Virus record (IMG/VR): IMGVR_UViG_3300036771_000101
Location: 21,023 to 85,022 of that record
Length of the DNA: 64,000 bases
Reading direction: 5' to 3' (one strand)
From: a virus
Part shown: positions 14,301-57,630 of the stretch, in pieces
Numbering within the stretch: the first letter of the stretch is position 1
Layout: each line of letters begins with the position of its first letter
The notes under the pieces: generated by a model
What the model was told of the DNA's origin: nothing
Seen by the model: only the letters and a program-made list of their open reading frames with translations
The model's database searches: none
Made by a program: the position numbers and the translations under genes

Positions 14301-14801
14301 ATGACTTTCATCCCGAACGACGTCGTCGGCGGGACGCAAACGCAACACGCGATTGCGTCTCCCGACGCTGTCGACTTCATGATCATGCTCGCCGCGGACG
14401 CCGGAATTGGCGTTGTCTCCGGGTTGACCGTCACTCCCAACAGTTCTGGTGTCAACCTGAACGTCAACATCGCGGCGGGTACGGTCCTGATCAACGGGAT
14501 GCAATACAGCATCGCTGCCGTTACGAACCTGACCGTGGCTGCAGCAGACGGTACGAACCCCCGGTTCGACCTGATCGTGTGCTCATCCACGACCGTGTCA
14601 CGGACAGGAGGGACGGCGGCAGCGAACCCGGTGTTCCCTGCCATTCCGGCGAGCTCGGCGGTGCTCGCCGCTGTCTACATTCCTGCAGCGGCAACGTCGA
14701 TCACGGCGACGAACATTGTGGATAAGCGCGTGATTATGTCGCCCGGCGGGGTTCCGAAGAACTACGCGGCCCGTACTTACGCTCGGGGGACTTGGAGGTA
14801 G
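14301..14801 (+). CDS. Tail fibre attachment-type protein
   Basis: 166 residues. The stretch VAAADGTNPRFDLIVCSS, then PVFPAIPASSAVLAAVYIP and NIVDKRVI, is a recurrent domain in phage tail fibre and baseplate proteins of actinophages. It usually forms the N-terminal trimeric part that connects a fibre to the tail. No enzymatic residues. Directly followed (3 bases) by the next small structural gene. Confidence 0.7.
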   Translation: MTFIPNDVVGGTQTQHAIASPDAVDFMIMLAADAGIGVVSGLTVTPNSSGVNLNVNIAAGTVLINGMQYSIAAVTNLTVAAADGTNPRFDLIVCSSTTVSRTGGTAAANPVFPAIPASSAVLAAVYIPAAATSITATNIVDKRVIMSPGGVPKNYAARTYARGTWR

Positions 14802-14804
14802 CGG

Positions 14805-15212
14805 ATGGCGACCGATCCGCAGTTCGCAGCAGTGGTGTCGGTGGCGGCGGCTCAGTTGACGGGGGCTGCGGAGACGAGCCTCACGGCTCCGACGACGGCG
14901 ACAACGGTTCTGACGGCCGGAGCCAACGGCACGAAGATAGAGGAGATCGTGATTCACGCGATCGGGGCGAGCTTGACCCAGGCGACAACGGCGGGATTCG
15001 TCTATGTCTTCATCAACGACGGGTCCTACCGTCTCTATGACACGATCCCGATCACGGCGGTGACGCCGAGCGCCGGGACCACTGCGCCGTTCCGTGTCAG
15101 TCGCACGTACACGAACCTGTGGATCAAGTCTGGCTCGACGTTGCGGGCGAGCAACTCCGTCGTTGGCAATCAGAACTTTCTCATGATGTTGGTGTTCGGT
15201 GGTGACTACTGA
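14805..15212 (+). CDS. Small structural protein
   Basis: 135 residues of beta-type sequence (TTVLTAGANGTKIEEIVIHA, FRVSRTYTNLWIKSGSTL). Its layout resembles small capsid or tail decoration proteins, but I cannot name a family. The TGA overlaps the following ATG (TGATG). Confidence 0.6.
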   Translation: MATDPQFAAVVSVAAAQLTGAAETSLTAPTTATTVLTAGANGTKIEEIVIHAIGASLTQATTAGFVYVFINDGSYRLYDTIPITAVTPSAGTTAPFRVSRTYTNLWIKSGSTLRASNSVVGNQNFLMMLVFGGDY

Positions 15213-56962: not shown

Positions 56963-56991
56963 TTGACAAGATCTGAGTCCAATCGTATGTT
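56963..56991 (+). promoter_or_regulatory. Consensus promoter of the hydrolase/tRNA operon
   Basis: TTGACA (56963-56968), a 17-base spacer and TATGTT (56986-56991), the best promoter in the window. ATG 56998 begins 7 bases after the -10 box, exactly where transcription should start. No ribosome site exists. The expected transcript therefore begins AUG ACU CCC ACC UAG. Confidence 0.88.
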
Positions 56992-56997
56992 GCCTTC

Positions 56998-57369
56998 ATG
57001 ACTCCCACCTAGATTTCTACTGACACGGACCACCTCGACCGTCTCTACGTCGTCACCCGCCGTGATCTGAGCCCCGGCCTCCAGGCCGCGCAGGCCGTTC
57101 ACGGCGCTTTCGCGTTCGCCACACGATTCCCTACGCTGGTGGCTGAGTGGCTGGAACGCAGCAACTTTCTCGTGGTCGTCGCCGCCGAGAACGAGGACGA
57201 GCTCATCGAGCTCCTCGAAAAGGCGGGGAAGGCTGACATCTGTCGGTGCCCGGTGCGGGAACCAGACCTTGATGGGGCGCTGACCTGCGTGGTGCTGGAA
57301 CCGGGCGACACGGCGAAACGGTTGTGCGCATCGATGCCGCTGGCGTTGAAGGAGCCGCAGATGTGCTGA
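56998..57369 (+). CDS. Pth2-type peptidyl-tRNA hydrolase with amber at codon 5
   Basis: The enzyme family frees tRNAs from stalled peptides. ATG ACT CCC ACC is followed by TAG (57010-57012), then the frame runs 118 codons: DRLYVVTRRDLSPGLQAAQA, VHGAFAFATRFP, FLVVVAAENEDELIELLEKA, CRCPVREPDLDGALTCVVLE and CASMPLALKE, following the Pth2 order of strands and helices. No ATG, GTG or TTG occurs between the TAG and GTG 57139, which would remove the conserved first 42 residues. Options: amber suppression by the adjacent CTA tRNAs, an ATT start at 57013, or a dead gene. Confidence 0.75.
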
Positions 57370-57374
57370 GACCT

Positions 57375-57428
57375 GGGGGAGGCCGTACTTGAGACGGCTT
57401 CCAGGTGCGAGTCCTGGCTCCCCCACCA
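57375..57428 (+). tRNA. D-armless tRNA-like gene
   Basis: GGGGGAG (57375-57381) pairs perfectly with CTCCCCC (57418-57424), then A and encoded CCA. Between are only a 5-bp hairpin with 7-base loop (GCCGT ACTTGAG ACGGC, 57382-57398), two bases, and a T-arm (CCAGG TGCGAGT CCTGG). The whole D-arm is missing. The loop would give anticodon TTG (Gln) with C instead of T at position 33. Either a minimal tRNA or a decayed one. Confidence 0.5.
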
Positions 57429-57429
57429 A

Positions 57430-57498
57430 GGGTCCGTCCGCTGGCGCGGCAGCGTGCCCCTAAAGCACGCGATGTGAGTTCGATCCTCACCGGACCCT
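57430..57498 (+). tRNA. tRNA with amber anticodon CTA, short D-arm
   Basis: Acceptor GGGTCCG with CGGACCC, T-arm GTGAG TTCGATC CTCAC, anticodon stem CGTGC with GCACG and loop CCCTAAA, giving CTA at positions 34-36. Position 33 is C rather than the near-universal T, and the D-arm is about three bases short. All stems pair, so it may be functional, but it is less orthodox than the CTA tRNA at 57557. Confidence 0.6.
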
Positions 57499-57501
57499 CT
57501 T

Positions 57502-57552
57502 GCCCTTGCTCCGTATCCATGCGGTCTGGACGTTCGAGCCGTCCCAAGGGCG
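57502..57552 (+). tRNA. D-armless tRNA-like gene, possibly CCA
   Basis: Acceptor GCCCTTG (57502-57508) pairs perfectly with CAAGGGC (57545-57551), discriminator G. T-arm GGACG TTCGAGC CGTCC is perfect. Only 19 bases lie between, forming one small hairpin (CCGT ATCCAT GCGG) that includes TCCA, so the anticodon could be CCA (Trp). No D-arm. Same geometry as the 57375 element. Confidence 0.45.
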
Positions 57553-57556
57553 CTAA

Positions 57557-57627
57557 GCCCCCATAGCGTAAGGGCAGCGCGGGAAGCTCTAATCTTCCTT
57601 GTCGAGGTTCGAATCCTCGTGGGGGCG
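57557..57627 (+). tRNA. Amber suppressor tRNA, anticodon CTA
   Basis: A complete cloverleaf: acceptor GCCCCCA/TGGGGGC, D-stem GCGT/GCGC with loop AAGGGCA, anticodon stem GGAAG/CTTCC with loop CTCTAAT (T33, anticodon CTA at 57589-57591), 4-base variable loop, T-arm CGAGG TTCGAAT CCTCG, discriminator G73. G73 and U35 are glutamine identity elements, and the T-arm recalls bacterial tRNA-Gln, so charging with Gln is a reasonable guess. It reads UAG. Abuts the converging gene that ends at 57631. Confidence 0.88.
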
Positions 57628-57630
57628 CGG

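Follow-up and report, generated by a model that had tools for sequence, protein, structure and literature searches.

An early amber codon in a phage pth2-like gene recurs together with phage-encoded suppressor tRNAs

The pth2-like gene and its early amber codon

We identified a gene for a protein resembling peptidyl-tRNA hydrolase 2 (Pth2) with an in-frame amber codon (TAG) at codon 5, followed on the same strand by two genes for transfer RNAs (tRNAs) with a CTA anticodon. The locus lies in a 64 kb stretch of phage DNA, referred to here as the window, which is part of the 85,022-base IMG/VR contig IMGVR_UViG_3300036771_000101, a single metagenomic contig. The main features are:

56963..56991, + strand: sigma-70-type promoter (TTGACA, 17-base spacer, TATGTT), implying a leaderless mRNA that starts from or beside ATG 56998
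56998..57369, + strand: pth2-like gene with an in-frame amber as codon 5, recognized by sequence, Pfam, structural model and PDB fold matches
57010..57012, + strand: the in-frame amber, next base A, read by a suppressor tRNA under the best explanation
57430..57499, + strand: tRNA with CTA anticodon, loop CCCTAAA (C33); found by ARAGORN and by a custom scanner (score 19.3), below the Rfam threshold
57557..57628, + strand: canonical tRNA with CTA anticodon, loop CTCTAAT; found by ARAGORN, Rfam (59 bits) and the custom scanner

The gene opens with ATG 56998, ACT CCC ACC and the TAG at 57010-57012, after which 118 sense codons run to TGA at 57367-57369. As the sequence-only reading of this DNA had claimed, a promoter stands just before the ATG: TTGACA occupies 56963-56968 and TATGTT 56986-56991, with 6 bases between the latter and the start codon, and of random RTGs in the window only about 0.07% have an equally good promoter at such a distance. 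The first ATG, GTG or TTG past the TAG is GTG 57139, which corresponds to residue 43 of the post-TAG protein. This residue is predicted to lie within helix 2, and a product initiated there would therefore be without the first strand and the helix carrying Q27 and H30, in agreement with the earlier claim that this start comes too late for the conserved N-terminus.

The assignment of the 118 codons to a Pth2-type protein was borne out by a match of the post-TAG region to the Pfam family PTH2 (PF01981; E=8e-8, 32.9 bits with a cut-off of 23). An AlphaFold2 model of the post-TAG protein, built on 46 phage sequences, had a mean predicted local distance difference test score (pLDDT) of 93.5, and its best fold matches in the PDB were archaeal and human Pth2 (AF2095, TMq 0.75, E 4e-8). 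Residues Q27, H30, D85 and T91, which represent the Q and H of the conserved Pth2 motif AQxxH and the conserved D and T, are invariant across 51 sequences. In the model, post-TAG residues 1-9 form a low-confidence coil and the first strand comprises residues 10-16. Because the model is disordered immediately past the TAG, this position should tolerate whichever residue is inserted; from the tRNA identity elements examined, the inserted amino acid could not be deduced for the CTA tRNAs. Both of these tRNAs had been predicted before and both were recovered by ARAGORN. The tRNA at 57430-57499 has C33 in place of U33, and Rfam detects only the one at 57557-57628. No DNA-level close relatives of the window were found in the phage collection. 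A scan of GTDB genomes gave no cellular relatives of this form of Pth2, which thus looks phage-borne.

Recurrence of the early amber and the CTA tRNA

Relatives were collected by tblastn against cultured phages and by profile scans of IMG/VR (a scan of IMG/VR with the single protein gave none), and were clustered at 80% amino acid identity; the clusters are not strictly independent and many contigs are fragments. Of 103 phage Pth2 clusters, 51 showed the early-amber design, consisting of a start codon, usually 0-4 codons, TAG and Pth2. This proportion is biased upward and is not a population frequency, as the queries came mainly from amber-bearing genes. Among the 51 clusters are Myrna and Bixzunavirus, which are cultured mycobacteriophages, and the jumbo phages Serratia BF and Pectobacterium CBB; for 47 of the 51, a same-strand CTA tRNA was found in the fetched 10 kb or near it. 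The check in related phages, which had been named beforehand as a possible refutation, thus speaks for the sequence-only reading, with TAG and same-strand CTA tRNA recurring together in very diverged phages. The window being one metagenomic contig, a sequencing error or a pseudogene could have been suspected, but this is refuted by the recurrence in 51 clusters including cultured phages, with a common start region in about 190 Bixzunavirus records, and its probability is practically negligible.

One family (family A; 97 loci in 54 clusters, from IMG/VR profile scans and cultured phages) contains 25 clusters with a start codon, 0-8 sense codons and TAG, and one cluster (L024) with an internal TAG near codon 55. 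A CTA tRNA was found near pth2 in 26/26 amber clusters vs. 3/28 others (Fisher p=5e-11, calculated on 25/26 vs. 3/28 and uncorrected for shared ancestry). The two CTA tRNAs of LR756501 are some 2 kb downstream of its pth2. ARAGORN alone missed the CTA tRNAs of L009, L042 and L044; all three were recovered by the custom scanner, which gave zero matches in shuffled sequence at a score of at least 16. A "CTA" tRNA in L023 looked spurious on the tRNA scan.

About 200 mycobacteriophages proved to have a Pth2 gene in the tblastn search against cultured phages. The order in Myrna, ScoobyDoobyDoo, Cane17 and others is a TTGACA promoter, RTG TAG GTG where transcription is expected to begin, pth2 and a CTA tRNA, and about 190 Bixzunavirus records have this start region in common. 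A promoter 6-7 bases 5' of the start was also present in L004, L006, L038, L049, L090, L100, L044 and L048; many other phages with the early stop have a Shine-Dalgarno-led start and are not leaderless. Cane17 also encodes a transfer-messenger RNA (tmRNA) and a short RF-1-domain protein (NC_054716 99258-99692, 119913-120269), and it therefore carries a ribosome-rescue kit beside Pth2.

Family B is a diverged jumbo-phage subfamily first met in Stenotrophomonas, Xanthomonas, Serratia and Pectobacterium phages. It comprises 49 clusters, 26 of which have an early TAG; for 22 of these 26 the fetched locus includes a CTA tRNA, and all suppressor tRNAs found in the family are on the pth2 strand (41/41). 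Serratia phage BF (ATG ACG CAC TAG; pth2 unannotated) and Pectobacterium phage CBB (ATG GCA CAA TAG) both have a CTA tRNA in the genome, and in L200 it lies 20 kb off on the same strand. Where LR745206 and LR756504 were sampled, no CTA tRNA was seen. Some family B clusters, among them L196, L198, L201, L210 and L211, have a pth2 gene that lacks an early stop and yet is followed, about 300 bases downstream, by a CTA tRNA; in L211, codon 32 of pth2 is an internal TAG. In phage XacN1, the Pth2 domain forms the C-terminus of ORF364 and has no amber.

Several observations weigh against dependence of Pth2 synthesis on the suppressor tRNA. The lysine of the canonical Pth2 motif GKGKxAAQ is not present (PG--LQxAQ here vs. 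MGkgKVAAQ in Bit1), which is why we refer to the protein as Pth2-like. Mycobacteriophages have a GTG directly 3' of the TAG, which is a possible start and makes these phages ambiguous taken alone. For the early-TAG loci L199 and L204, both on short contigs, no CTA tRNA was found, and L166 has a doubtful one only. In 16 family B clusters a CTA tRNA is present and pth2 has no early stop, which suggests that the link between pth2 and suppressor tRNA is more general than the early stop.

The mycobacteriophage start region bears on the improbable explanation that the TAG closes a tiny leader open reading frame, with Pth2 starting downstream at GTG or at a non-standard ATT as in a conventional attenuator. 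In mycobacteriophages the TAG is immediately followed by GTG or ATG, Myrna has a GGAGG-like sequence upstream, and GenBank annotates the post-TAG GTG as the mycobacteriophage start. Across the whole set, however, 42 of the 51 early-amber clusters have no ATG, GTG or TTG from the TAG to the Pth2 domain, and the codon after the TAG is not conserved (ATT, AAC, ACA, GTA, GGC, GAA, CTG). A leader would also leave the matching suppressor tRNA unexplained.

A second explanation accepts the read-through and denies it a regulatory purpose: early ambers would be tolerated, or would serve as an addiction device for the suppressor tRNA. The lineages with pth2 beside CTA tRNAs and no amber fit this, as does the variable amber position, which ranges over codons 2-10 with one near codon 55. 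Drift would, however, scatter ambers over many genes, and no other early-amber gene was found in the contig of the window, where pth2 alone shows the pattern; the position is, moreover, concentrated at codons 2-5 across very diverged proteins. We consider purposeless read-through unlikely.

Stop type, tRNA-like elements and a possible mechanism

The strongest evidence is that the type of stop follows the tRNA anticodon. Apart from the TAG/CTA pairs, the early stop of L192 is TGA, no CTA tRNA is present there and a canonical TCA tRNA lies 353 nucleotides upstream, and L067 has an early TAA with a TTA tRNA downstream. Each variant is a single case. The TGA/TCA and TAA/TTA combinations are what a read-through model predicts, an accident in the 5' untranslated region would not predict them, and a leader reading frame leaves them unexplained. 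The base 3' of the TAG is a purine in 27/29 cases and T in none; U at the +4 position has been reported to lower stop-codon read-through in bacteria (PMC5289835).

Genome-wide reassignment of TAG (genetic code 15), with pth2 as one of many recoded genes, was weighed against the use of TAG as terminator. Lak phages use code 15 and also carry Pth2, and the pth2 of LR756501 has a second in-frame TAG. TAG terminates, however, 15/87 predicted genes in the contig of the window and 32/190 in Cane17 (17% in both), which is about its share among stop triplets, as well as 4/68 in part of BF and 14/102 in part of LR756511, and genes near most other amber loci also end in TAG. Code 15 is recognized by avoidance of TAG as terminator and by in-frame TAGs in many genes; the former was found neither in the contig nor in Cane17, and a second gene with an early in-frame TAG was not found in the contig. 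TAG is thus an ordinary stop in these phages, so that whole-genome recoding is not the case, and we regard this explanation as very improbable. Two Lak phage loci (L135, L136) have Pth2 without early stop and a TTA-anticodon tRNA about 0.7 kb upstream.

A +1 slip of the RF2 type is not indicated, as Pth2 continues in the zero frame past the stop. The only locus possibly needing a +1 shift (at CAT TGA) is L053, where ATG AAA CAG TCC CAT TGA T lies about 35 bases before the Pth2 domain, Pth2 is in the +1 frame and there is no other start; this start region resembles an RF2-type +1 frameshift.

Decoding of the early stop by the phage suppressor tRNA is strongly supported by these comparisons. We consider it likely that the stop acts as a gate, with translation of the pth2-like gene depending on the suppressor tRNA of the phage itself, and the Pth2-like protein is probably made only when that tRNA works. 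The leaderless mRNA would initiate at the start codon with UAG a few codons on, where release factor 1 (RF1) would normally stop translation after 1-4 residues. The phage CUA tRNAs, encoded on the same strand and probably on the same transcript, would compete with RF1 at this codon, and when charged and abundant they would allow read-through to the whole Pth2 protein. Its output would rise with suppressor-tRNA activity, so that the recycling enzyme would appear alongside amber suppression and the phage tRNA array. We infer the regulatory purpose and dose dependence of the gate, the charging of the tRNAs and their decoding of the stop, and the hydrolase activity of the protein, and the "only when charged" and "feed-forward switch" of the sequence-only reading likewise describe how it may work. 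Three purposes would fit: Pth2 may handle peptidyl-tRNA from drop-off and from translation past normal stops, the early codon may itself be a drop-off reporter, or the amber may merely make the suppressor tRNA indispensable.

Two further elements, which the sequence-only reading had omitted, lie beside the CTA tRNAs:

57375..57428, + strand: D-armless tRNA-like element 1 (7-bp acceptor, 5-bp anticodon-like arm, T arm, ACCA)
57502..57555, + strand: D-armless tRNA-like element 2 (acceptor stem, anticodon-like arm, T arm)

Such an element, with no room for a D arm, stands 1-2 bases 5' of each of the two CTA tRNAs; ACCA is present in the first copy. Besides these elements, only the real tRNAs and the antisense mirror image of element 1 gave a match in the 64 kb, and shuffled sequence gave 0 per 64 kb. 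Similar elements separate pth2 from the CTA tRNA in Myrna, ScoobyDoobyDoo, Bixzunavirus, L048, L049, L079, L100, L042, L044 and L071, and D-armless or reduced ones 5' of CTA tRNAs also in L004, L006 and L038; some in the relatives have a longer middle, and ACCA is often present. A tentative extension is that the first codons of pth2 form a widespread, undescribed stop-codon sensor which may use any of the three stops and tie Pth2 synthesis to the state of the suppressor tRNA. A stop at codons 2-5 would be the most drop-off-prone site, so that the start would report the load of Pth substrate, and the D-armless RNAs, with the acceptor-T half that is bound by Pth enzymes, might take part in the circuit.

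Two other regions of the contigs drew attention. Two tail-fibre-like genes (window 14301-15212; contig G000 8758-10719) end in TAG and run in-frame into similar "MAxDPQFAA" genes, to which CTA-tRNA read-through would fuse them. At 1100-2302 of the window, a long coding frame has 190 codons without ATG, GTG or TTG, and AGGAGG followed by CTG suggests a CTG start at 1100.

Relation to known systems and significance

The proposed gate resembles several known systems in part. RF2 (prfB) is autoregulated through an early in-frame UGA and +1 frameshifting, by which RF2 itself is sensed; both systems have a translation factor whose own gene carries an early gating stop at the 5' end, but the frameshift there would here be replaced by read-through by a dedicated tRNA. 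Programmed stop read-through in viruses, which likewise relies on a leaky stop within a gene, usually yields a C-terminal extension by means of a host tRNA, whereas here the stop falls within codons 2-10 and the phage itself encodes the cognate tRNA. The lambda bar minigenes, which trap tRNA, share a very short open reading frame tied to peptidyl-tRNA metabolism and differ in having no read-through product.

In code 15 phages, a phage suppressor tRNA reads TAG and may time expression (Borges et al. 2022, PMC9197471, as cited in PMC10879173), as it may here. In code 15 phages recoding extends to many lysis and structural genes, whereas in the phages studied here TAG is ordinary and one recycling gene has an early stop near its tRNA. 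Suppressor tRNAs of recoded gut phages have also been tied to lysis and structural genes (PMC10879173). For XacN1, which encodes a peptidyl-tRNA hydrolase as well as two CUA suppressor tRNAs, the authors were unable to identify the suppressor targets (PMC5852040); a survey of mycobacterial tRNA arrays noted PTH2 genes in the arrays of cluster C phages and mentioned no amber or suppressor (PMC5966550). A search of the open literature, without subscription papers and preprints, turned up no account of stop codons in phage pth genes; the sequence-only reading likewise knew of no described case.

No target had been known for the suppressor tRNAs of phages without codon reassignment, and pth2 would be a conserved target gene, which makes the question testable in cultured M. 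smegmatis and enterobacterial phages. Gene callers miss or truncate such genes, as shown by the unannotated pth2 of BF and by mycobacteriophage starts placed after the TAG. The gate would be a natural single-gene counterpart of the engineered amber switch.
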